Assembly (NCBI GenBank): GCA_903832295.1
Contig: CAILAZ010000309.1
Location: 1-64,000, forward strand
DNA length: 64,000 nt
Direction of reading: 5' to 3'
Source: an uncultured Acidobacteriota bacterium
GTDB taxonomy: Bacteria; Acidobacteriota; Terriglobia; Terriglobales; Acidobacteriaceae
Shown here: one piece after another, positions 13,182 to 27,000 of the stretch
Numbering within the stretch: position 1 is the first letter of the stretch
Layout of the letters: every line of letters starts with the position of its first letter
Program-made: the position numbers and the translations under genes
The notes under the pieces: generated by a model
What the model was told of the DNA's origin: nothing
What the model saw: only the letters and a program-made list of their open reading frames with translations
The model's database searches: none

Positions 13182-15056
13182 ATGTGCGGAATTGTTGGCT
13201 ACGTAGGCAAGAAGCAGGTTGTTCCGGTCATTATTGATGGATTGCGGCGGCTTGAATATCGCGGCTATGATTCGGCGGGAATTGCGGTTGCCGGCGGAGA
13301 AAGCGGACTGCAGATCCGGCGCGCGGAAGGCAAGCTGCGCAACCTGGAAGAAGTCATCCGGCATAACCCGATTGATGGAACCTACGGCATTGGGCACACG
13401 CGCTGGGCTACGCACGGACGGCCAAGCGAGGAGAACGCGCATCCGCACCGCGACTGCAGCGGAACCATCGTGGTGGTACACAACGGGATTGTGGAGAACT
13501 ACCTTGCGCTGAAGAAGCAACTGCGCGAGGAAGGCCACAGCTACAAGACCGAGACGGACACGGAAGTGATCGCGCACCTGATCGAGAAATATTTCCTGCT
13601 GGAAAATCCCGACAAAAAGATTTCGCTGGAAGAGGCCGTGCGAATGACGGTGAAGCGGCTGAGCGGAGTGTTTGCGATGTCGGTGATCTGCAGCAGCGAG
13701 CCGAACAAGATTATTGCGGCGCGCAACGGGCCTCCGGCGGTGATCGGGCTGGGCAAGGATGAGTATTTTGTGGCGAGCGACGTGCCGGCGATTCTGTATC
13801 ACACGCGGGATTTGTTTTTCCTGGGAGACGGCGACCTGGCGGTGCTGACGCCGGCGGGGGTGACGCTGACGGACTTCGACGGCAAGCCGGTGCAGCGCGA
13901 GGTGCAGCACATTACGTGGGATCCGATCATGGCGGAGAAGGGCGGCTTCAAGCACTTCATGCTCAAGGAAATCTATGAGCAGCCGCGAGCGGTTCGGGAT
14001 ACGGCGATGGGGCGGGTTTCGTTCGACACGGGCAAGGTGTTCCTGGACCAGATGGATGTGTCCGACGAGGAGTTCCGCACGCTGCGCAAGCTGAATATTG
14101 CGGCCTGCGGAACGAGCTGGCACGCGGGGCTGGCGGGCAAATACATGATCGAGCGGCTGGCGCGGGTTCCGGTGGAAGTGGATTATGCGAGCGAGTTCCG
14201 GTATCGCAATCCGCTGATTGGGCCGGACGAGATGACGATGGTGATCACGCAGTCTGGCGAGACGGCGGACACGATTGCGGCGCAACGGGAATCAAAGCTG
14301 AAGGGCGCCAAGACGATTGCCATCTGCAACGTGGTGGGCGCAATGATTGCGCGCGAAGCGGATGGGACAATTTATACGCACGCGGGGCCGGAGATCGGCG
14401 TGGCTTCGACGAAGGCGTTTACGGCGCAACTGGTGGCGCTGTTTCTGTTTGCGCTGCGGCTGGGGCAGATACGCGGCACGGTAACGGATGAAGAGTCCGT
14501 GAAGCTGACACAGGAACTGGCCAAGCTGCCGGGTCTGCTGGAAGGCGTGCTGGCCAGAGATGAAGAATTGGAAGAGCTGGCGAAGACCTACCAACGGGTG
14601 CAGGACTTCCTGTTCCTGGGACGCGGCATCCACTTCCCGATTGCGCTGGAAGGGGCGCTGAAGCTGAAGGAAATCTCCTACATTCACGCCGAAGGCTATG
14701 CGGCAGGGGAGATGAAACACGGGCCGAATGCGCTGATCGACGAAGACCTTCCGGTGGTGATTATTGCCACGCAGGACAAGAACGATCCGGGTTCCGTGCT
14801 GCGGTATGAGAAGACGATTTCAAATCTGAAGGAAGTGAAGGCGCGCTCAGGCCGGGTGATTGCAATCGCGACCGAGGGCGACGAGGATATCCGCGAGGCC
14901 GCCGACCACGTGGTGTTTATTCCACACGCACCGGAACTGCTGCTGCCGATCCTGGAGATTGTGCCGCTGCAACTGCTGGCGTACCACATTGCCGTGCGAA
15001 GAGGGTGCGACGTGGATCAGCCTCGGAATTTGGCGAAGTCAGTGACGGTGGAGTAG
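13182..15056 (+). CDS. glmS: glutamine--fructose-6-phosphate aminotransferase (isomerizing)
   Basis: [33 protein letters not shown] glutaminase start; SIS domains; C-terminus NLAKSVTVE. Confidence 0.97.
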
Positions 15057-15095
15057 AGGTTCGGCTTCCGATCGCACAAAAAACAGCAGCAAATT

Positions 15096-15128
15096 AGACG
15101 CACGCGGGGGCTCACCTCGCGTGCGTCT
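15096..15128. terminator. hairpin between convergent glmS and the beta-propeller gene
   Basis: AGACGCACGCG...CGCGTGCGTCT, 11 bp perfect stem. Confidence 0.6.
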
Positions 15129-15157
15129 GGTTTCGGCTCCCTTTCTCTCGCATGATG

Positions 15158-16234
15158 TCAGCGGTGCGCAACCTCCTCCACGTGCAGGCTGGAGATATCC
15201 ATAAGCCACAAGGTCAGGGTGTGCGGTCCGGCAACGGCGTCGCGACTGGAGGAGAAGAGCAACCAGTGACCATCCGGCGAAATTACTGGAAACCCATTGA
15301 AGGCCTTGCGGTAGGTGAGCTGTACCTGCTCAGAGCTGTTCAGGTCGCCGAGGAATATCTGGTAGCTGCCCTGGATGGAGCGCACAAAGACATAGTGGTG
15401 TCCGTCGGGCGCGGGATAAGGCGACCAGTTCATGCCATCGTCGTTGGTGATCTTCTTTAGATCGCTGCCATCGTCGTTGATGGTAAACAAAGACATCGGC
15501 AGTGGATGCTTATTGGCCTTCTGGTCTTCGACCTTCCATGCGCGGAAGAGAATCTTGCTGCTGTGGGGAAAGTAGAAGGCGCCGCCCGGCTCCCAGCCAT
15601 CGAGGTGCGTGACCTGGGTAACCTGGCTGCCATCGGGTTTGGCGCGCCAGAGGTCCAGTTTTCCCTCTGCCTGATGGCCGTAGAGGATGTACTTTCCGTC
15701 AGGGCGCACGGAGACCTCGGCGTCATAGTTGGTGTTGCTGGTCAACCTGCGAACATCGCTGCCATCGAGATTCGAGGTGTAGATCTCGGCGCCCTGAGGA
15801 TAGTTGTTGGGGTCAGAGTAATTTCCCTTGGGAAGCTCCGGATGGTCGCGCGTCGAGGTCCAGATGATGCGCTTGCCGTCGGGAAAATAGTAGGAGCAGG
15901 CGTCCTCACCGCGGTCGTTTATGCGGCGAATATTGCTGCCATCGAGATTCAAGGTATAGACGTGATAGCTCTCATCACCCTGGCGCTTGGCGTTTCCGAT
16001 GATGCTCCGGCCATCGGGGGAGAAGTAGAACTCCGCCGCCGGACCGATGTTGGGAATAAAGTGCACGGGGAGTTCCTGCGGGGCGCTCTCCGCGGGGGAT
16101 GGGGCAGAGGCCGGGGCCGTTGCCTGAGCCCGGCCGCCCGTGGAGAGGCTGGCGGCAAGCATCGCCGCCAGCACCACGCGTGACATCCAGTACTGCGTGC
16201 TATTCCGCACTTTCGTAGCCTCTGTTGTGTTCAT
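15158..16234 (-). CDS. TolB-like PD40 beta-propeller protein
   Basis: Repeated FSPDGRSIIGN / YFPDGKRIIWTSTRD / RPDGKYILYG blades; signal peptide. Confidence 0.85.
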   Translation of the reverse strand: MNTTEATKVRNSTQYWMSRVVLAAMLAASLSTGGRAQATAPASAPSPAESAPQELPVHFIPNIGPAAEFYFSPDGRSIIGNAKRQGDESYHVYTLNLDGSNIRRINDRGEDACSYYFPDGKRIIWTSTRDHPELPKGNYSDPNNYPQGAEIYTSNLDGSDVRRLTSNTNYDAEVSVRPDGKYILYGHQAEGKLDLWRAKPDGSQVTQVTHLDGWEPGGAFYFPHSSKILFRAWKVEDQKANKHPLPMSLFTINDDGSDLKKITNDDGMNWSPYPAPDGHHYVFVRSIQGSYQIFLGDLNSSEQVQLTYRKAFNGFPVISPDGHWLLFSSSRDAVAGPHTLTLWLMDISSLHVEEVAHR

Positions 16235-16258
16235 GGATTTCCTCGTCTTTTCTCAGGC

Positions 16259-19200
16259 CTAGAAGGTAATTTTGAGCGACAGTTGTGCGTTGAAGGGCTC
16301 GCCCGGACCGATGCCGGGGAGGCCAAACTGGGAGCCGTTAGTGTAGCCGATGGGAAAGCCCATGCTGAAGCCGGGAACGGCGATGATGCCGTTGGCTCCG
16401 GTGAACAGAGGGGCTCCGAGGTTGACGCGGTTGAAGATGTTGAACAGGTCCGCCCGAAGTTGGGCATGGACGCGTTCTGAGATTGCTGTTTCCTTGGAGA
16501 GATTCAAATCAACGTCGGCGAAACCAGGTCCGAAGAGCTGGTTGCGGCGCGTGGTTCCCCATGAGCCAAATGAGCTGGTGAAGGAATTGGCGTTGAACCA
16601 GTAAACCGGCTTGTGATTGACAACCGAGTGGGAGATGCCAGCGTAGGGATTGGCGATCTGGGTTGCACGGTCGGTGATTTCGGCGGTGCCACTGGGATCG
16701 ACGTAGTTGTTGACGGTGAAGGGCTGCCCGGATCGGATGCTGAGCAGGCTGCTGACCCGCCAGCCTTTGCTGAGCCGTCCCAGAGCAGGCAAGAACGCGG
16801 GCACGTCATAGGAGAGGAAAGCGGTGAAGTTGTTCCGCTGATCGAAGTCGCTGTTGCCGTACTCGCCGCGCCGGTTCGTGCTGTCCTGGGGAAGAAGCAA
16901 GAAGCTGCCGTAGTCCAGCGTATGCGCCCAGGTATAAGCGAACTGGGAAGTTACGCCGTGCCAGGATTGCGTTTTGAGCGTAGCCTGCAGTGAATTGTAG
17001 TTGGAGGTGCCGCCACTGGAGAGTTCGTTGATGAAGGTGTAGTTGGGATATTTCGAATAGAACGGGCGAGTGGTGTTGTAATCGGCCGCGTAATACTCGC
17101 TGCCCAGCGCCGCCTGGTTGATGTCATTGATCAACAGCAGATGCCGTCCCAGGCTGCCTACGTAGGCAATCTCGGCGAGGGCGGCTTTGCCCAGTCCATG
17201 CTGGATACCCAGCCGGTAGTTGAGCAGGCGGGGCGTGGTGAGGTGCTGGCTGACGGCGAAGAGGCTGATTGCGCTGTTCGGGGTGGCGCTGGCGAAGACA
17301 TTCGAGCCATTCGTGGGAAGCGCCGAGGTGCCACCGTTGTTGTAAAGATTGAGGGTCTGCACCTGGTTGTTTCCCACCGGATTATCCTGTGCGCCGCTGG
17401 CTCCGCCGTTGGCGAGGTTGCCGTCAGCGAGGAACGACGCGGCACTGACGGTATCAAAGGCGAGACCGATCGAGCCCCGGATGGCAGTGTTGGAGTCATG
17501 GAAGGGGCGGAGAGCAAAACCAAAATTCGGGGCGAAGTTCGTCTTTACTCCCGGGTAAAGCGTCCTGATGTCTTTTCCGGCGACCAGCAGGCCGCGCTGC
17601 GGATCAAAGGTTGTGAGATTCTGGTTTCCATTCTGCACCGGCTGATTGTAGCCATAGCGCAAGCCGAAAGTGAGACTCAACCGGCGCGTCGCCTGAAAGC
17701 GATCCTGCCCGAAGAAAGAGAAACCATTGCTGCTAAGCCAACGGGTAGGATCTCCGTGAACGAGCTTGGCGTTGCTGTAATATCCGGCAAGAAAGTCGGC
17801 GAGGGATTGCAGGTAGGGGTCGGTGACGGTTGAGAGCTGCGGATTGGTCCACGGACCCTGGTCTCCATAGAAGTTGAACACGCCGCGCTGATTGTTGTGA
17901 TAGAACGCATGGATCTTGTTGTATCGGAACTCACCGCCGAAGCGCAGTTCGTGGCGGCCGACGCCGTAGGTCACGGTGTCCGTCAGGTGCCAGCTCAGGT
18001 CGCGGCGGCCAGAATAGGGATTGATGCCGATGGGATCAAAGAGCGAGTTGCCGGTGCCGTCATTACCGATATTGATGCGAGGCGCGCCGGCGAGTTGCGG
18101 ATCGGTGACGCCGGTATTGAGTCCCAGTGCCGCCGGACTGTAACTGGTGTTGGCGTCGGCCTCGGTCTGCTGGAAGAAGTTAATACCCAGCAGGAGTTGA
18201 TTGGCGGCCCGGTCCGAGAGTGTGGAGTTCTGTACCAGCGCCCAGTTCTGCACCCGCATGGGCGAGGACTCGAAATAGGGTGAGAGGAAGGAAGAAGTGG
18301 GCGCCGTCTGGTGGCCCTGCGCGATGAAAGCACGGAGGCTAAGCCGCTCGCGCTCGCTCAATGTGTGCTCAATCCTGACGATTGCGTTGTTGCTGTAGCC
18401 GGTCTCCGTGCCTGGGTTGGAGTAGTTGCCCGGGCTTGCCGGGCCGTTGAGCGCGGAGGACGGCCAGAGGTTGGCGAGCAGCTTGGCCGATACCGGGTTC
18501 TGGACTACCGGGGCGTAGGTGCCGTACTTGCCTCCCGGATTGTTGAGCACATCGAGAGCGGCGGCCTGGTAGCCCTTGGGACCAGCGGAGGGTTCGGTAA
18601 CCACCACCGGATTCGTGAGATTGAAATTCTGGCGCTCATAGCTGGCGAAGTAGAAAGTACGGTTCTTGAAGATAGGTCCGCCAATGGTGAAGCCGAGTTG
18701 CTGGTTGCGCAGCTTGTTCTTGTGGACGATGTAATTGCCGCTGGCATCCGCGGCGCCGAATACCGGGTCAGCGGCCAGTGCCTCATGCCGCAAGTAGTAG
18801 TAGGCCGAGCCGTGCAGCTGGTTGGTGCCCGACTTCAAGGCAAGATTCACGGTGGGGCCGGGGTTGCGGCTGGTCTCGGCGCCGCCCTGGGTGAGAATTG
18901 AGAACTCTTCAACGGAATCCAGCGGCAGCAGCACACCGGGAATTCCATAGACGCCGCCCTGGTTGACCGCCGAAGTGTTGATCCACAGGTCGTTGTTATC
19001 GGCACCCTCAATCTGCCAGTTTGTCTGCGAGGCCTGCGAACCATTGATGGCGCTCATGAAGCCGACTCCATAGCCGGAGTAACCGGGAGTAAGCGTGAGC
19101 AACTGGGTGAAGTCGCGGCCGTTGAGAGGCACGTTCTGTACCATCTGGGGCAGCAACACATCCACATCAGAGGACGCCGAGGTGTCCACTGCGAGGGCCG

Positions 19201-19591
19201 CCGCCGTGACGTTTACCTTCTCAGCCACGGCATGCACCGTGAGCTTGAGCGCGAGGGGGTAAGCGCTGCCCGCGCTGACTTCGATGCGCTGAACCGTCAG
19301 CGGATCAAAACCAGCATGGGACACGGTAAGCGCGTAGCTGCCCAGCGGCAGATCCAACAGGGAGAACTCGCCGGCAGTGGTGGTCTGGGTGGAGTAGCTC
19401 TGCCCGGTGGATGCACTGACAGCTTTGACCTCGGTGCCGCTCAACAACGCTCCGGAGGCGTCCTCCACGTGGCCACGAATGCCTCCGCGGAATGTCTGGG
19501 CCTCAACAGGGAGGCTGGCAAATAGAAGGAAGGTGGCGGCCAAGAAAACGCTCAGGCCCAACGACAAGGACTTCAGGGTACGGGAATACAT
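16259..19591 (-). CDS. TonB-dependent receptor, Oar-like, with carboxypeptidase-regulatory-like N-terminal domain
   Basis: Start trimmed to MYSRTLKSLSLG signal peptide; GGIRGHVEDASGALLSGTEVKAV domain; plug NVPLNGRDFTQLLTLTPG; beta-barrel C-terminus. Confidence 0.92.
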   Translation of the reverse strand: MYSRTLKSLSLGLSVFLAATFLLFASLPVEAQTFRGGIRGHVEDASGALLSGTEVKAVSASTGQSYSTQTTTAGEFSLLDLPLGSYALTVSHAGFDPLTVQRIEVSAGSAYPLALKLTVHAVAEKVNVTAAALAVDTSASSDVDVLLPQMVQNVPLNGRDFTQLLTLTPGYSGYGVGFMSAINGSQASQTNWQIEGADNNDLWINTSAVNQGGVYGIPGVLLPLDSVEEFSILTQGGAETSRNPGPTVNLALKSGTNQLHGSAYYYLRHEALAADPVFGAADASGNYIVHKNKLRNQQLGFTIGGPIFKNRTFYFASYERQNFNLTNPVVVTEPSAGPKGYQAAALDVLNNPGGKYGTYAPVVQNPVSAKLLANLWPSSALNGPASPGNYSNPGTETGYSNNAIVRIEHTLSERERLSLRAFIAQGHQTAPTSSFLSPYFESSPMRVQNWALVQNSTLSDRAANQLLLGINFFQQTEADANTSYSPAALGLNTGVTDPQLAGAPRINIGNDGTGNSLFDPIGINPYSGRRDLSWHLTDTVTYGVGRHELRFGGEFRYNKIHAFYHNNQRGVFNFYGDQGPWTNPQLSTVTDPYLQSLADFLAGYYSNAKLVHGDPTRWLSSNGFSFFGQDRFQATRRLSLTFGLRYGYNQPVQNGNQNLTTFDPQRGLLVAGKDIRTLYPGVKTNFAPNFGFALRPFHDSNTAIRGSIGLAFDTVSAASFLADGNLANGGASGAQDNPVGNNQVQTLNLYNNGGTSALPTNGSNVFASATPNSAISLFAVSQHLTTPRLLNYRLGIQHGLGKAALAEIAYVGSLGRHLLLINDINQAALGSEYYAADYNTTRPFYSKYPNYTFINELSSGGTSNYNSLQATLKTQSWHGVTSQFAYTWAHTLDYGSFLLLPQDSTNRRGEYGNSDFDQRNNFTAFLSYDVPAFLPALGRLSKGWRVSSLLSIRSGQPFTVNNYVDPSGTAEITDRATQIANPYAGISHSVVNHKPVYWFNANSFTSSFGSWGTTRRNQLFGPGFADVDLNLSKETAISERVHAQLRADLFNIFNRVNLGAPLFTGANGIIAVPGFSMGFPIGYTNGSQFGLPGIGPGEPFNAQLSLKITF

Positions 19592-19693
19592 GGCTCTTTT
19601 CTCTCTCATGTGCAATCTGTTTGAGGAACTTCCAATGGGCAGAAGCGGCTTGCGTTCGCCTCCCTTCCCGCCGTTGCGACGGGCAAAAAGCAG

Positions 19694-19722
19694 AAGGCCC
19701 ACGATGGGTGCTCGTGGGCCTT
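19694..19722 (-). terminator. attenuator hairpin in the leader of the TonB receptor gene
   Basis: On the minus strand AAGGCCCACGA-gcaccca-TCGTGGGCCTT (11 bp perfect stem) followed by CTGCTTTTTG. Confidence 0.8.
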
Positions 19723-19746
19723 GCTGAACTCGGAGATGGAATTACT

Positions 19747-19839
19747 CTATGGAGTAACTCGGACTCTGGCGGCAAGCGCGCACGCACCCAGGGTGGGCTG
19801 CATACAACAACAGATCGCGGCTTGCGAAATCGCCTTCAT
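19747..19839 (-). CDS. predicted Cys-rich leader peptide, MKAISQAAICCCMQPTLGACALAARVRVTP
   Basis: 30-codon ORF with TGT TGT TGT ATG; promoter-like TTGACA-18-TACTCT places the start site at or near the ATG; followed by hairpin 19694-19722; leader segment 19784-19790 complementary to the hairpin loop. Confidence 0.65.
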   Translation of the reverse strand: MKAISQAAICCCMQPTLGACALAARVRVTP

Positions 19840-19942
19840 GTAGAGCGAGAGTAACTGGAAAGCAAAATTTCTGTCAACTTGAAATTGCGGCTTCACTGAT
19901 TTTTCACTTGTGCAGCGCTGGAAAGTTCGCTAGAGTGAGTGC

Positions 19943-20023
19943 ATGATTTTCTCCTCCACCATGGCCTGTTGTTGCGCGAGCATGTGTATGTGCATGCGCG
20001 ACGGCTCTGGCATGGGGAGATAA
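19943..20023 (+). CDS. predicted Cys/Met-rich leader peptide, MIFSSTMACCCASMCMCMRDGSGMGR
   Basis: 26-codon ORF with TGT TGT TGC and ATG-TGT-ATG-TGC-ATG; promoter-like TTGTGC-17-TAGAGT ends 6 nt before ATG; followed by terminator 20053-20086 with a complementary leader segment. Confidence 0.7.
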   Translation: MIFSSTMACCCASMCMCMRDGSGMGR

Positions 20024-20052
20024 TCGACAGCTTTCAGTAATAAGTTTTGTCG

Positions 20053-20086
20053 AACCCACTGCCAGAGCGCAGTGGGTTTTTGTTTT
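20053..20086 (+). terminator. attenuator/terminator immediately upstream of tRNA-Cys
   Basis: AACCCACTGC-cagagc-GCAGTGGGTT followed by TTTGTTTT; 10 bp perfect stem. Confidence 0.85.
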
Positions 20087-20088
20087 AG

Positions 20089-20164
20089 GCACGGGTGGCG
20101 AAGCGGCTAACGCGGCGGACTGCAAATCCGTTATTCATGGGTTCAAATCCCATCCCGTGCTCCA
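20089..20164 (+). tRNA. tRNA-Cys (anticodon GCA at 20122-20124), CCA encoded
   Basis: Acceptor GCACGGG/CCCGTGC, discriminator T then CCA; anticodon arm GGACTGCAAATCC; T-arm ATGGGTTCAAATCCCAT. Confidence 0.93.
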
Positions 20165-20186
20165 GCATCCGCAAGGACGTAAGACG

Positions 20187-20291
20187 ATGACGACCACGCC
20201 CAATTCGACGATGACCGGCACGGCCACCATGGCCATGTGCATGTGTATGCGTCACGGTATCCCTGGCGTGGGCGGAGAATCCGGAGAGTAA
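20187..20291 (+). CDS. predicted Cys/Met-rich leader peptide, MTTTPNSTMTGTATMAMCMCMRHGIPGVGGESGE
   Basis: 34-codon ORF 22 nt after tRNA-Cys; shares MCMCMR[D/H]G with the upstream leader using different synonymous codons; followed by terminator hairpin 20319-20347 with a complementary leader segment. Confidence 0.68.
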   Translation: MTTTPNSTMTGTATMAMCMCMRHGIPGVGGESGE

Positions 20292-20318
20292 AGCAGCAAC
20301 ATCCGGTTCGATTTTCCG

Positions 20319-20354
20319 AAGGCCCACGCCGAACAAGCGTGGGCCTTCCCTTTT
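20319..20354 (+). terminator. attenuator hairpin upstream of ORF 20378..20710
   Basis: AAGGCCCACGC-cgaacaa-GCGTGGGCCTT then CCCTTTT; 11 bp perfect stem. Confidence 0.78.
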
Positions 20355-20377
20355 GGCGCAGTACAGGAGCAACGACG

Positions 20378-20710
20378 ATGAAACAGCAAGCGCATTCGCA
20401 ACCGCAAACCAAAACCCTGACGCACATCTACGTCCGCGACGCACAGCAGGGCTTTGTGCGCCCCTGCTGGGCCAGCGGCCCGGAGCTGTATTGCGGCATG
20501 TGCATGCGGGGTGTGGTGCGGGCGGAGCTCGGTGCGACCTGCCCGGTGTGCAGCAGCACGGTGGAGCGCATTCTGGAAGTTACCGAAGGGGGTACGCCGA
20601 AGTTCACACGCCAACGACGTGAGTGTTCCATCCGCGTGGGTGCGGCGCGGCAGGAGGAACGACAGGCTGTGCTGTTGAACTTCAGGGCTTCGCAGCGGGG
20701 GCTTGCATAA
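20378..20710 (+). CDS. small zinc-ribbon-like hypothetical protein
   Basis: Trimmed from ORF 20237..20710 to ATG with AGGAGC RBS; YCGMCMRGVVRAELGATCPVCSS CxxC pairs. Confidence 0.55.
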   Translation: MKQQAHSQPQTKTLTHIYVRDAQQGFVRPCWASGPELYCGMCMRGVVRAELGATCPVCSSTVERILEVTEGGTPKFTRQRRECSIRVGAARQEERQAVLLNFRASQRGLA

Positions 20711-20730
20711 GCCTTTCTTCTGCGAACGGG

Positions 20731-20756
20731 TCGGGGGCAGAGTGCGCTGCCCCCGA
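20731..20756. terminator. bidirectional hairpin between convergent genes
   Basis: TCGGGGGCAG-agtgcg-CTGCCCCCGA, 10 bp perfect stem. Confidence 0.65.
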
Positions 20757-20781
20757 GCCTTCGACGCAGCCGTGATGCGGC

Positions 20782-21132
20782 CTAGGCGGCCATCATCATC
20801 TTTGCAGTCATCGAACAGGACTCGGCGCAGCGTCGGCACATTTCCGCGCAACGCATCATCATCGGATTGTCGCTCATGCCTTCGCACATCATCGCGCAGG
20901 CGCTGCACATCTCGGCGCACATCATGCACATCTTGCCGCCCATGGGAGACATGCGCATCATCATGTTTGCGCACATCTGGCACATCTCCATGCAGTCCAT
21001 GAGCATGGACATCTTCTTCATGTCCATCATGCCCATCTTCATGCACTGCATCATGGCTTCCATGCACATTGCCATGCAGCTGCGACAATCCTCCATACAT
21101 CGACGCATGTCCATTGACATTTCCATTTCCAT
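20782..21132 (-). CDS. hyper Met/Cys-rich four-helix-bundle copper-binding protein (DUF326/Csp-like)
   Basis: 116 aa with 42 Met and 17 Cys by manual count; repeated CxxxC and CxxC patterns (MRRCMEDCRSCMAMC...RCAEMCRRCAESC); RBS AGGAGA. Confidence 0.8.
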   Translation of the reverse strand: MEMEMSMDMRRCMEDCRSCMAMCMEAMMQCMKMGMMDMKKMSMLMDCMEMCQMCANMMMRMSPMGGKMCMMCAEMCSACAMMCEGMSDNPMMMRCAEMCRRCAESCSMTAKMMMAA

Positions 21133-21256
21133 TGCTGTTCTCCTGTATTAAGTTCGGGACTTGCCCGTCATGGGTTGACGTCGCTCCGGGTGGCACCACC
21201 CAATCCCAGAGCTCCCGAGTGCGCGGGAGTTCATTGTAACTCGAATGGGCCAGGGG

Positions 21257-21288
21257 AAAAAAGCCCGGTATCTTTGCGAACACCGGGC
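21257..21288 (-). terminator. rho-independent terminator of the trans-sulfuration operon
   Basis: Minus strand GCCCGGT...ACCGGGC followed by TTTTTT. Confidence 0.8.
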
Positions 21289-21314
21289 GGAGAGGCACTG
21301 GCGGGTAAGCCCGT

Positions 21315-22475
21315 TTATTTGGCGGCGAACGAGAGCGCGTGGCTGGCGGCGGCGGTGAGCGCCTGATCGAGGTCGGCAATGAGGTCTCCGCTGTCTTCAA
21401 TGCCTACGGAGATACGCACAAGTTCCGGCGGCAGTACGCGCGTGGCGGCGATCTCCGGGGGCACGCTGGCGTGCGACATGGCGGCCGGGAGGCTGATGGT
21501 TGAGTGAACGCTTCCAAAGCTGACGCAGATCTGGAACATCTTTGCATTCTCGGCAATTGCCTTTGCGGCCTCCGTGGAGTGCGCCGTAAAGCTCAATACC
21601 GATCCCGCCCCGCTGGCCTGGCTGCGCTGCAACGGGGAGTGGGTGAGCCCGGGATAGAAGACATGGCCGACTCGCGCATCGGCGGCGAGGAATTCCGCAA
21701 TCGCCTGGGCGTTGCGCTGCTGCGCATCCAGGCGGAGCTTCAGGGTCTTGAGTCCGCGTTGCAATAGAAAGCAGTCAAAAGGCGCCAGCGCATTGCCCTC
21801 GGCGTTTTGCAGGAAGGCGATGTCGCCGCCAAGTTTCTCATCCCGAACGACCACCATGCCGCCGGTGACATCGGCATGCCCGCAGAGGAATTTTGTCGCG
21901 GAGTGGAGGACGACGTCGGCACCCAACTCCAAGGGACGCTGGAGGTAAGGCGACATGAGGGAGTTATCCACCACAAGCAGCGCACCATTGGCATGCGCCA
22001 GCGCAGCGAGGGCGCGGAGGTCCAGTACGCGCAGCAGTGGGTTGGTGGGGGACTCGGCATAGATGATGCGGGTGCGCGGCGTGATCTTCGCCGCAAAAGT
22101 CTCGAGGTCTCCGGCATCGGCGTAATGTGCGGTAATTCCGCTGCGCTCGAGCACGCGGGTAAAGAGACGGCAGGTGCCGCCATAGAGATCGCTGTCTGCG
22201 AGAATTTCATCCCCGGCGCGCAGGGTGCGCGCCACGGCAGTAATGGCCGCCATGCCGCTGGCGAAGGCAAAGCCACGCTGGCCGCCTTCCAGCTTTGCCA
22301 CGAGTTCCTCAAGAACCTTGCGGGTGGGATTACCACTCCGCGAGTAATCGAAGTCGCCGAAGCTATCGGCGTGCTCCTGCTCAAAGGTCGCCGTCTGGTA
22401 GATGGGCGTGGCCGTGGGACGGTAGGGGTCGCCGGGGGCGGCCTGATGCTGCACGAGCTGACTAGCGAACTTCAC
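21315..22475 (-). CDS. trans-sulfuration PLP-dependent enzyme (cystathionine gamma-synthase/lyase family)
   Basis: GTG start at 22475 overlapping the previous stop, AGGAGG RBS; PLP lysine motif HSATKFLCGHADVTGG. Confidence 0.88.
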   Translation of the reverse strand: MKFASQLVQHQAAPGDPYRPTATPIYQTATFEQEHADSFGDFDYSRSGNPTRKVLEELVAKLEGGQRGFAFASGMAAITAVARTLRAGDEILADSDLYGGTCRLFTRVLERSGITAHYADAGDLETFAAKITPRTRIIYAESPTNPLLRVLDLRALAALAHANGALLVVDNSLMSPYLQRPLELGADVVLHSATKFLCGHADVTGGMVVVRDEKLGGDIAFLQNAEGNALAPFDCFLLQRGLKTLKLRLDAQQRNAQAIAEFLAADARVGHVFYPGLTHSPLQRSQASGAGSVLSFTAHSTEAAKAIAENAKMFQICVSFGSVHSTISLPAAMSHASVPPEIAATRVLPPELVRISVGIEDSGDLIADLDQALTAAASHALSFAAK

Positions 22476-23673
22476 TGGCGGCCTCCTGAGCGCGTTGGGC
22501 GCAAGACAGAGCGCAACCCGCGGCGGCAAAGGCCTGCGCGAGATCGGCGATGATGTCGGCGGGCGACTCCAGCCCGACGGAAATGCGGATGAGTCCCTCG
22601 GAAATTCCGAGAGCCGCGCGCGTCTCCGCACCGAGGTCGGCGTGAGTGGTGGAGGCCGGATGGGTGATCAATGTCTCCAGCCCTCCCAGGCTTTCGGCGC
22701 GCGAGCAGAGCTGGACCGAGTTGAGCACAGCGATGGCGGTCTCAAAGGGAGCGTCGAGTTCAAAGCTCAACATGCCACCGGCGGCGCGCTGCTGTCGCAA
22801 CGCAAGCTCGTGCTGGGGAAAGCTCCGCAGGCCCGGGTAGTAGACGCGGGCAACCGACGGTTGCGACTCGAGCCACTCGGCGATCTGCTGCGCGTTCTCG
22901 CAGTGGAGGCGCAGCCTGGCAGGGAGCGTCTTGATGCCCTGAAGGGTGAGCCACGCCTCGAAGGGCGCCTGTATGGAGCCGAGCGTCTTGCGAATCAAAC
23001 GGAAGCGCTCCGCAAGCTCCGGGTTTTGCGTAGCCAGCGATCCGCCGACGGTGGCGTTATGTCCGTCCATGTACTTGGTAGTGGAGAGGACGCTGATATC
23101 CGCACCCAGTTCCAACGGGCGCTGGAGCGCGGGAGTCAGGAAGGTGTTATCCACGGCGAGCAAGAGTCCGTGACGGCGCGTAATTTCAGCAACCGCGGCA
23201 ATGTCTGTGAGGGTGAGGATGGGATTGGCCGGAGACTCGATGAAGACGATGCGCGTCTGCGGGGTGATTGCCGCTTGCACGTTCGCGGCCTCGGAGGTGT
23301 CCACAAAACTGGCGGTGACGCCGAAGGGCTCAAGGATTTCGCGGAAGAGACGGATGGTGCCGCCGTAGAGCACCTTGGAGAGGATGGCGTGGTCGCCGGC
23401 CTTGAGGAGGGAGAAGAACAGCGTGCTCTCTGCTGCCAGACCGGTGCGGAAACACACTGCCGGCGGCGTACCCTCGAGTGCGCCGATGGCCCGCTCGAGC
23501 GCATCTACCGTGGGGTTGGAGACGCGCGAGTAGCTGAAACCCTTATCTACACCGACGGCATCGTGAACGAAGGTGCCCGTCTGGTAGAGCGGGAAGAGCA
23601 GCGAACTGGCGTGCGAATCCAGCGAGCGTCCGCCGTGAATAGCAAGGGTGGCAATGTCGTGCGGGGAAGCCAT
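22462..23673 (-). CDS. trans-sulfuration PLP-dependent enzyme (cystathionine gamma-synthase/beta-lyase family)
   Basis: LAIHGGRSLD..., PLP lysine motif LSTTKYMDGHNATVGG, VYYPGL. Confidence 0.88.
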   Translation of the reverse strand: MASPHDIATLAIHGGRSLDSHASSLLFPLYQTGTFVHDAVGVDKGFSYSRVSNPTVDALERAIGALEGTPPAVCFRTGLAAESTLFFSLLKAGDHAILSKVLYGGTIRLFREILEPFGVTASFVDTSEAANVQAAITPQTRIVFIESPANPILTLTDIAAVAEITRRHGLLLAVDNTFLTPALQRPLELGADISVLSTTKYMDGHNATVGGSLATQNPELAERFRLIRKTLGSIQAPFEAWLTLQGIKTLPARLRLHCENAQQIAEWLESQPSVARVYYPGLRSFPQHELALRQQRAAGGMLSFELDAPFETAIAVLNSVQLCSRAESLGGLETLITHPASTTHADLGAETRAALGISEGLIRISVGLESPADIIADLAQAFAAAGCALSCAQRAQEAASEVR

Positions 23674-23712
23674 TTGTTCTCTCCTGGCAGGTGAGTGGTT
23701 TATGTCCTAAAA

Positions 23713-23745
23713 CAAATTTGCCGTCTTGAGAGTCCCCCAGACGGC
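23713..23745 (-). terminator. predicted attenuator hairpin upstream of the trans-sulfuration operon
   Basis: Minus strand GCCGTCT-(12 nt)-AGACGGC followed by AAATTTGTTTT; the 5' arm is complementary to the leader ORF. Confidence 0.6.
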
Positions 23746-23770
23746 TGCCAGAAAAGAGTTGTGCGATTAC

Positions 23771-23848
23771 TCAAACACTCCGTGCTGGACGACCACCGCC
23801 TGGGGGGCACATGGCCATACGCATTCGAGAGTTGTTGAGCATCGTCAT
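23771..23848 (-). CDS. predicted Met-rich leader peptide, MTMLNNSRMRMAMCPPGGGRPARSV
   Basis: 25-codon ORF with ATG-CGT-ATG-GCC-ATG-TGC; RBS-like AGGAAA; promoter-like TTGGCA-16-TATGAT upstream; followed by hairpin 23720-23745. Confidence 0.6.
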   Translation of the reverse strand: MTMLNNSRMRMAMCPPGGGRPARSV

Positions 23849-24004
23849 CTAGAGTTTCCTATCACTGAAAACGGATAGAGGATCATAGCATGGAAAGTCA
23901 CGTTGCCAAACCCCCCGATCAAGATTCGCGAGTTTTTCATCGTTGCGCCAAGGGACAGGCGCCCCTCGCTTCAGTGGGCGCAAGGGGCGATGGTGACACA
24001 ACAA

Positions 24005-24026
24005 AGTCCCCGCCGTGGCGGGGACT
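24005..24026 (-). terminator. rho-independent terminator of the NHL/Ig-like surface protein gene
   Basis: AGTCCCCGCC-ac-GGCGGGGACT followed by TTGTTGTG on the minus strand. Confidence 0.65.
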
Positions 24027-24043
24027 CTGCTGCGTGGACCGGA

Positions 24044-27000
24044 TTACTGCGCGGTGTAGATGTAGTCGTGGTATTGCCAGACTCCATTGCTGCGACTGAA
24101 GAGCCGGACGTAAACGGGCTTGCCAGTTGCGGGAATGGAAGGAACGGTCGCCGTAGTGGAAGTGATGACGCCCGAGTTGTAGAGATTGACCGCACCCTTG
24201 CCGGAGGTTCCGACCTGCAACTGATAACCACCGTTGATGCCAACACCCGGGGTCCAGGTGAATTGCACGGCGGTGGTTCCCAGGACCGAGCCTGGAGCAG
24301 GCGTGAGCATCTCGGCAGCAGTGATGGTTCCGGCCTCGGTGTAGAGGTAGTCGATGAACGACCACACGCCGTTGATCTTCGAGAAGAGGCGGACATAGAC
24401 AGGAACCGCGTTTCCAGGAAGGGTGGGGATGGTGGCCGTGGTAGCGGCGATGATGCCCGAGCTATACAGATTGCTCGAACCCGCGCCGTTGGTGCCGGCG
24501 ATCAGTTGATAGCCGCCGTTCACTCCTACGCCCTGATTCCATGTGAATACGACATCCGTGGTTCCCAGCTTGGTGCCGGGAGTGGGAGACTGCATGGCGG
24601 CAGGAGTGGGAGTGCCGGCTTCGGTATAGGTGTAATCGACAGACTGCCATGCGCCGCCAATCTTGGAGAGAAGGCGCACATAGACAGGGAAAGCACTGAC
24701 GGGAATTCCATTTACGAGTGCCGATGTTGCCGCAATGGTACCCGATCTAAACAGATCGCTTGAACCCGCGCCCGTGGTACCAACGAGCAACTGGTAGCCT
24801 CCGCTGACGCCAACACCGCTGTTCCAGGTGAAGGTCACGCTCGCTCCGCTGAGCGCGGTGCCGGGAGTGGGAGACTGCATGGCGGCAGGAGCGGGAGTGC
24901 CCGATTCGGTGTACGTGTAGTCAAGGAACGACCACACGCCGTTGATCTTGGAGAAGAGCCGGGCATAGACGGTTTGGGCATCCGCAGGGATGTAGGGTAC
25001 GGCTACCGATGTGGCCTTGATTACACCGGAGACGAAGAGGTTGCTGGAGCCCGCTCCGGTGGTTCCGAGAAGAAGCTGATAGGCAGCGACTCCGCTGCCG
25101 GGAGACCAGTTGAAGGTAACGGGGGAATCAGGCAGAACACCGCTGGGCACCGGAGAGATCATCTCCGCCGCGCTGGGGCTGCCGGTTTCGGTGTAGGTGA
25201 AGTCGATGTTCGTCCAGAGTGCATTGACGCGCCAGAAGAGCCGGGCGTAGATGGTCTGGCCGGCGGTGGGGACGGAGACCGTCGCCGAGGTTGCGGTGGT
25301 GCGACCGGAATCATAAATGTCATTGAGCCCGATGCCGGTTCCGAGATAGAGCATGTAGCTATTCGCGGTCTTGCCTGCGTCCCATGCAAAGGTGACGGTA
25401 GAGTCGGACAGCGAGGAACCTGCGCTGGGACTGATGAAGGGATTGACGGTAAAGGAGACACTGACCGGAGGGGCCGCGAGGGTGTTGCCGTCACCGGGCT
25501 GAGTTGCGGTGACTGTGACCAGGCCGGCTCCGTTGATGTAGAGGGTGCTTCCGCTGATGGAGGCTGGACCGGAGACCGAGTAAGACACCGGCAAACCGGA
25601 CGATGCACCGGCGGTCAACACGATGGGAGACACCGGATAGGTCTGCGCACCCGGGTTGGGGAAGGTGATGGTCTGCGGCAACGAGTTCACCGTAAGGGTC
25701 CCGTTGATGTAGGTGATGGTGTAAGTATCCAGACCATTTCCCACAGCCGCGCTGGGAACGATGTCATAGGTGCCGACAGGGGCCGAGGGATCGGCACCCG
25801 TGCTGCTCAAGGTCACGCCGGTGACGCTGTCGCCGTCGGCAAGGCCAATGTAGGTGAATTCCGTCCCGGCGAATGTGAGAGTGTCGCCATAGGTCTTGGC
25901 GACGCTGTTGGCGGTGATCTTCAGGGCCTTCCTTTGCACGGTCAACGTGGTGCTGGCCGTGGCGCTGGTCAGGAAGTTGTTCCCGGCATAGTCATAGGTA
26001 ACGGTGTAAGAGGCTGTGACGGCCGGAAGGGTAAGAGTGTCAAAGGAGATTGAGAAGTTTCCGCCGGAGAGGTTCGCCAGCACCGGCGTTCCATTGATGG
26101 TGATCGTTACGGTCTCTCCGTCCCCGGGCAGCAGACCTGAGGCAGTCAGCGATCCCGAGAGCGTTACGGGCAGCCCGTAATTGACGGTCTGAGAGGACAG
26201 GCCACTGAAGGAAGGTGTTGGAGTCCAAGTGGTCGATTTGCGAATGCGATTGGTCCTCTGGTCAGTGATGTAGAGATTGTCCATCGCATCAAGCACCACG
26301 GCGGAAGGCGGCGCGCTGAGCCTTGCGCTGGTGGCCGGGCACCCATCGCCGACAGAGTCTGTCTGATAGCTGCATAAAGCAGCAAGCCATGAGCCGGCCA
26401 CGGTGGAGACGATCTGGGTATTTGCATCGACCTCGCGTACCAGTCCAAAGTCGAAGGCACCGCTATACCCGTCTGTGAGATAGAGGTCATTCAAGCTATC
26501 CAACGCGATGCCGTTCGCATAGATCATTACCTCGGTGGCGAGGCAACCGTCGCCGAAGTTGTCGATCACCGCACTACAGTGACTGTTGCCTCCACCGGCG
26601 ACAACAGAGACGGCCTTGGTGTTCGCATCCACTTTGTGAACCAGCGAGTACTCGGTGTAATAGATATTGTTTGCCGCATCGACCACTAACGCCGTTGGAT
26701 ACGTTGTGGACACCACCGAGTAGATGTATCCCGGAGTGCGTCCGCCGCAGTACGGGCCGCCCCCTGATCCGCAAATTACACGAATCTGGCCGACACCCGA
26801 GTCGGCGATGAATATGTTCCCAAGCGCATCTACAGCGAGGGAAGACGGCCCAAATACGCCGCCTCCGGAGAAGGAATGCAGACTAATCTGCCTCTGGAAT
26901 AGCAGGGCACGGGTTGCGGGACAGCCATTTCCGGAAGTATCCGTGGCGCCGGGGCAGACGTCGTAGTTGCCTCCGCCAACCCAGGAGATTTTCTGGGTCA

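Follow-up and report, generated by a model that had tools for sequence, protein, structure and literature searches.

Why should the gene for an outer-membrane receptor be preceded by a very short reading frame with three consecutive cysteine codons, and what might such an arrangement sense? The question was raised by an initial annotation of the window, the stretch of 64,000 nucleotides from a soil acidobacterium analyzed here, in which a poly-Cys leader and attenuator were proposed in front of a TonB-dependent receptor operon. The features concerned are as follows.

15158–16234, minus strand: PD40 β-propeller protein, downstream in the receptor operon (domain match) and still adjacent 3′ in the four closest receptor orthologues
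16259–19591, minus strand: Oar-like TonB-dependent receptor (CarboxypepD_reg plus OMP_b-brl_4 barrel)
19694–19722, minus strand: terminator 1, AAGGCCCACGAGCACCCATCGTGGGCCTT, followed by a T-rich tail (terminator scan)
19747–19839, minus strand: leader peptide 1, MKAISQAAICCCMQPTLGACALAARVRVTP, 30 amino acids (ATG at 19839, stop at 19749–19747)
19773–19791, minus strand: antiterminator strand 1, complementary to terminator 1 (loop and 5′ arm)
19804–19812, minus strand: TGT TGT TGT, predicted stall codons of leader 1 (pairing gain maximal at codons 11–13)
19848–19853, minus strand: TACTCT, −10-like hexamer of leader 1, 18-nt spacer from TTGACA and ATG 8 nt on
19872–19877, minus strand: TTGACA, −35-like hexamer of leader 1 (sequence)

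The positions originally given for the leader, the TGT triplet, the hairpin and the receptor were all correct on the minus strand, and both hexamers are present with the 18-nt spacer described, the −10-like one 8 nt ahead of the ATG. A Shine–Dalgarno sequence was looked for 5′ of the leader 1 ATG and none was found; because of this, and because the −10-like hexamer lies only 8 nt away, a leaderless or near-leaderless mRNA is likely. A rule-based promoter scan called no promoter, the leader promoters being partial consensus matches only. Terminator 1 was among the top two terminator-like sites by strength in a scan of positions 15000–21500. The complementarity noticed earlier between TGGGTGC (19790–19784) and the terminator 1 loop, GCACCCA, was also found, and the best duplex between leader and terminator as computed with RNAduplex (leader nt 49–67) reached −20.1 kcal/mol (p = 0.008 versus shuffles), the same energy as that of the terminator 1 hairpin itself (−20.1 kcal/mol). 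In the computed fold of free leader 1, the antiterminator strand is sequestered in a hairpin by the segment adjoining the Cys codons.

For analysis of the switch geometry, a stall scan was employed, whereby a ribosome was placed at each codon, the downstream RNA was left free, and the pairing gain of the terminator 5′ half was computed over the ensemble; energies are equilibrium values, and dinucleotide shuffles served as controls. With C10, C11, C12 and M13 of leader 1 in the A site, the gain was −13.4, −16.6, −16.9 and −17.3 kcal/mol, respectively, falling to −1.6 kcal/mol with the ribosome at the stop codon (shuffles, −4.9 ± 2.3 kcal/mol; p = 0.010). The geometry of leader 1 is thus that of a classical attenuator switch, with an antiterminator that is free when the ribosome is at the Cys codons and not when it is at the stop. 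At the Cys codons the terminator is still favored by 2.6 kcal/mol, so co-transcriptional kinetics must contribute.

A divergent element on the plus strand, overlooked in the initial annotation, appears to form a second attenuator ahead of a tRNA-Cys gene, and is followed by a third leader-like element.

19908–19913, plus strand: TTGTGC, −35-like hexamer of leader 2, 17-nt spacer to TAGAGT
19931–19936, plus strand: TAGAGT, −10-like hexamer of leader 2, ATG 6 nt on
19943–20023, plus strand: leader peptide 2, MIFSSTMACCCASMCMCMRDGSGMGR, 26 amino acids, poly-Cys, divergent from leader 1
20052–20079, plus strand: terminator 2, GAACCCACTGCCAGAGCGCAGTGGGTTT plus TTGTTTT, 28 nt past the leader 2 stop
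20089–20164, plus strand: tRNA-Cys (GCA), 9 nt past terminator 2
20187–20291, plus strand: leader-like ORF 3, MTTTPNSTMTGTATMAMCMCMRHGIPGVGGESGE (less certain), its MCMCMR part similar to leader 2
20318–20348, plus strand: terminator-like hairpin 3, 26 nt past the ORF 3 stop
20378–20710, plus strand: 110-amino acid ORF past hairpin 3 with two CxxC pairs (ORF list)

For leader 2 the pairing gain was −20 to −23 kcal/mol in the Cys region, exceeding the strength of terminator 2 (−18.1 kcal/mol), and −3.3 kcal/mol at the stop (p = 0.003). Both window leaders combine three features expected of a ribosome-mediated attenuator, namely a run of the regulating codon, an intrinsic terminator between stop and gene, and a predicted stall-dependent antiterminator, the last judged on equilibrium energies. 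As there is scant room between terminator 2 and the tRNA, the latter is best explained as a read-through product. When positions 14000–25000 were searched with Rfam covariance models, the tRNA alone reached gathering score, and no T-box or other riboswitch was detected. Taken together, the sequence features make it very probable that the receptor–tRNA-Cys intergenic region (∼0.5 kb) holds two divergent cysteine-sensing transcription attenuators. For ORF 3 the pairing gain was likewise maximal at its Cys/Met codons (p = 0.007), and hairpin 3 has a weak T run; ORF 3 and hairpin 3 might form a third attenuator, a reading that is probable at best. The 110-amino acid ORF beyond it had no match in Pfam or NCBIfam.

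Could these mini-ORFs have arisen by chance, the hairpins being ordinary terminators of upstream transcripts? The leader sequences are indeed unconserved, and terminator-like hairpins overall were at least as common in shuffled as in real sequence. Against this, ATG mini-ORFs with any homo-triplet and a terminator 10–45 nt past the stop occurred at just three sites in the 64-kb window, of which two were poly-Cys, and these two leader/terminator sets share one intergenic region. Enrichment that is confined to Cys, the position and spacing of the elements, and the reverse-strand and shuffle controls argue in the same direction, leaving chance a barely credible explanation.

From this geometry we infer stalling, termination and the direction of the response as follows. 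Each attenuator would begin with a leaderless (or near-leaderless) mini-ORF bearing three consecutive Cys codons. When Cys-tRNA is ample, the ribosome would reach the stop, the antiterminator strand would be covered or paired inside the leader, and the terminator would fold 24–28 nt past the stop and halt transcription. When Cys-tRNA is scarce, the ribosome would stall at the Cys codons and mask the segment that hides the antiterminator strand; the freed strand could then pair with the terminator 5′ half, and RNA polymerase would continue, leftwards into the genes for the Oar-like receptor and its β-propeller partner and rightwards into tRNA-Cys. The tRNA would in this way be under negative feedback from its own charged form.

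The tRNA-Cys arrangement was then examined in relatives, where the genes were gathered by sequence pattern rather than by BLAST with the window tRNA; BLAST had matched few genomes because most carry a different kind of tRNA-Cys. Two kinds occur, type A (GGCGCGG...) and type B (GCACNGG...), the window gene being type B. Cys-rich leaders were found in 11 of 36 type B upstream regions (0.67 expected; none on the reverse strand) and in 1 of 49 type A regions (0.60 expected), and the majority of type B genes have no leader. One candidate (L289) was discounted as chance. Ten leaders were accepted (L001, L287, L300, L310, L312, L314, L351, L352, L369 and L373), and the order of leader, terminator and tRNA-Cys recurs in nine further genomes. 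At all ten accepted loci ARAGORN called a tRNA-Cys, and a hairpin with a T run lies between leader stop and tRNA, in nine cases of the form CCCACC...GGTGGG. Stall scans of eight of these leaders, including that of the window, gave p values of 0.003, 0.003, 0.010, 0.010, 0.013, 0.043, 0.053 and 0.136, with cases that are partly non-independent since several come from a single genus; in the leaders tested, the gain dropped sharply immediately past the Cys codons. Pattern matches to tRNA-Cys numbered five in the window genome (G000), G181, G294 and G410, and one to three in most relatives. At five loci (L288, L290, L291, L292 and L293) a type B tRNA-Cys without a leader stands right after a peroxiredoxin-like frame, named by eye.

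A search of the open-access literature found no report of leader-peptide attenuation of a tRNA gene, and we know of no such case. If the predicted control operates, the cell would set how much of a tRNA it makes by how far that tRNA is charged, which would directly explain how tRNA supply can follow demand.

Whether cysteine or sulfur is the signal was approached through the genes that such leaders precede elsewhere. Upstream of cysD in relatives, an ATG mini-ORF with a Cys doublet was found in 16 of 20 cases (2.0 in shuffles) and one with a Cys triplet in 8 of 20 (0.13 in shuffles); runs of no other amino acid were enriched there as Cys was. A function-blind pattern for leaderless mini-ORFs (TATANT, ATG, three Cys codons) returned at least 39 in-frame cases among the matches listed. 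Within these, at least 22 precede cysDNH, cysH, sulfite reductase or a sulfate ABC transporter, and at least 3 precede receptors of the Pfam family of the window receptor. Leaders in these genomes are 12–38 amino acids long, and the Cys codons are their sole conserved feature. Since the same leader type precedes sulfate-assimilation operons in relatives, cysteine or sulfur is the likely signal. The first proposal, that scarcity of cysteine induces the receptor operon by way of a leaderless peptide, draws support from the stall scan, the sulfur-operon leaders, the leaders of receptor orthologues and the enrichment of Cys runs alone. It is probable, on these comparisons, that tRNA-Cys is made on demand by leader-peptide attenuation within an Acidobacteriaceae cysteine-attenuator regulon comprising sulfate assimilation, outer-membrane receptors and tRNA. 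Single loci in this collection include an sbp-cysT-cysW sulfate ABC transporter operon after a poly-Cys leader, with a terminator 24 nt past the stop (L277); leaderless mini-ORFs with six and five Cys ahead of a β-carbonic anhydrase gene in two genomes (L255 and L257); and a CCC mini-ORF 5′ of proBA (L254).

The initial annotation had also suggested looking for Cys leaders on Oar-like receptors of related genomes. They are present, on about one in ten orthologues, and the peptides are mutually non-homologous. In the upstream regions of the orthologue group, Cys-doublet mini-ORFs were found in 17 of 91 (5.5 in shuffles) and Cys-triplet mini-ORFs in 4 of 91 (0.12 in shuffles); seven doublet labels (L044, L087, L092, L125, L127, L134 and L005) are probably chance. 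The Granulicella mallensis receptor (L077) carries the leader MNSVSLLVSVYSECCHAYAWARDCVR and a terminator. The three nearest orthologues (L031, L032 and L061) have no Cys leader, and within the window genome a CC/CCC ATG leader was found on the window receptor alone among the 21 same-Pfam receptors examined, and on none of the other 20. When 87 receptors were placed on a tree, the leader label was scattered, with clustering no greater than shuffled, which leaves a single origin unsupported; as the leaders are also unrelated apart from their Cys codons, repeated gain and loss appears to have occurred. Genes adjoining the leader-bearing receptors included no common sulfur gene.

A stall-scan profile similar to that of leader 1 (p = 0.003–0.18) was obtained for three receptor orthologues (L033, L052 and L054) and three sulfur-gene leaders (L172, L174 and L176), single-case p values being modest and the cases partly related. 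In six of the seven leaders formed by these and the window receptor leader, the terminator starts 23–28 nt past the leader stop; across leaders the spacing is 22–43 nt, mostly 22–29. The RNAduplex antiterminator test, which considers a single best duplex in too narrow a region, was significant for the window leader alone. The near-constant distance from stop to terminator in the window, tRNA and several sulfur cases bears on a second alternative, that the leaders work on translation or via Rho, as proposed in mycobacteria, and that the hairpins are not the switch. Such a mode would suit the actinobacterial poly-Cys leaders, which were predicted from their Cys codons before cys operons and have no evident intrinsic terminators (PMC1262725), as well as the receptor leaders L004/L102, L124 and L131, at which no intrinsic terminator was found. 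A scan likewise found no simple intrinsic terminator at the Acidobacteriaceae cysDNH operons that lie behind leaderless leaders with up to five consecutive Cys (L260, L262–L273, L275 and L169); there the switch may involve Rho or another fold. For the window, this alternative is quite unlikely, given that antiterminator pairing is centered on the Cys codons in the stall scans and that a tRNA offers no ribosome-binding site on which such control could act.

Attenuation by intrinsic termination, the preferred reading, has several known relatives. Control of amino-acid operons by leader-peptide attenuation is textbook knowledge, and the elements described here share with the trp, his and ilv attenuators their leader codons, a stall-dependent antiterminator and a terminator past the stop; they differ in the use of cysteine, the predicted leaderless start and the tRNA target. 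T-box riboswitches also set expression by tRNA charging, but bind the tRNA directly without need of a leader peptide, and none was matched at the locus by Rfam. In mycobacteria, Cys-codon leaders occur as leaderless ORFs (PMC4633059); poly-Cys leaders there are described as cysteine-responsive in a passage of PMC9031893 citing Canestrari et al. (2020), and the case is termed translation attenuation where PMC13236596 cites the same work. The leaders described here resemble these in the Cys run, the sulfur genes downstream and a mini-ORF that is probably leaderless. They differ in belonging to another phylum, in that an intrinsic terminator and antiterminator can be drawn, and in the range of their targets, which takes in a tRNA gene as well as a TonB-dependent receptor; the window leaders themselves serve the receptor and tRNA-Cys, those before sulfur genes being in relatives. 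As noted in 2010, almost none of the attenuators of Acidobacteria had an assigned function (PMC2965389). Poly-Cys leaders, known from Actinobacteria, would now extend to the phylum Acidobacteriota with intrinsic terminators. Such attenuation of a receptor and a tRNA gene in another phylum is probably real, the tRNA case being the novel part.

A precedent at a TonB-dependent transporter is CruR, a small upstream ORF before Bordetella bfrG; its product is a copper-sensing DUF2946 protein that carries a distal RAPP arrest motif, and termination there is Rho-dependent (PMC9426467). By analogy, the Cys-rich leaders could sense copper or thiol state via the nascent peptide rather than Cys-tRNA supply, since here too a Cys-bearing small peptide stands ahead of a TonB-dependent receptor, and a small, Met/Cys-rich, copper-storage-like protein that matches DUF326 weakly is encoded nearby (20785–21132, minus strand). 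The window leaders, at 30 and 26 amino acids, nonetheless have no DUF2946, CXXC or RAPP arrest motif, and several Cys leaders have intrinsic terminators. With leaders of this type also preceding cysDNH, sulfite reductase, sulfate transporter and tRNA-Cys genes, none of them copper-related, copper or thiol sensing is highly unlikely, and sensing of Cys-tRNA supply is retained.

What the receptor itself transports was considered last. Acidobacteriota have dozens of TonB-dependent receptors per genome, with, to our knowledge, almost no substrates assigned. A Cys leader would be a readable label for those receptors that the cell treats as sulfur-acquisition genes, and would make substrate assignment testable. 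The window genome is a fragmented assembly (94.6% complete), and three genus-mates are 98, 99 and 100% complete. PAPS_reduct, which covers CysD and CysH, had no match in the window genome or the genus-mates of 98 and 99%, and one weak match only in the third; the sulfite/nitrite reductase domain and Sat-type ATP sulfurylase were absent from all four. With PAPS/APS reductase, CysD, ATP sulfurylase and sulfite reductase missing, sulfate assimilation seems to be beyond the genus, a setting that would suit an outer-membrane receptor which scavenges reduced sulfur under cysteine control. The earlier suggestion of a sulfur source as substrate is strengthened to that extent, although no neighboring gene names the compound. 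The receptor could instead serve protein export, with cysteine regulation for another reason: Oar of Myxococcus xanthus is required for secretion of the PopC protease (PMC6434023), and the operon partner is a secreted-looking β-propeller protein. Induction by cysteine scarcity is, by contrast, what would be expected of uptake, and the remainder of the leader regulon is concerned with sulfur acquisition; export is accordingly the less likely function, albeit one that deserves some weight, and the receptor is tentatively regarded as a sulfur-scavenging uptake protein. Two Cys_Met_Meta_PP enzymes are also encoded near the receptor locus.
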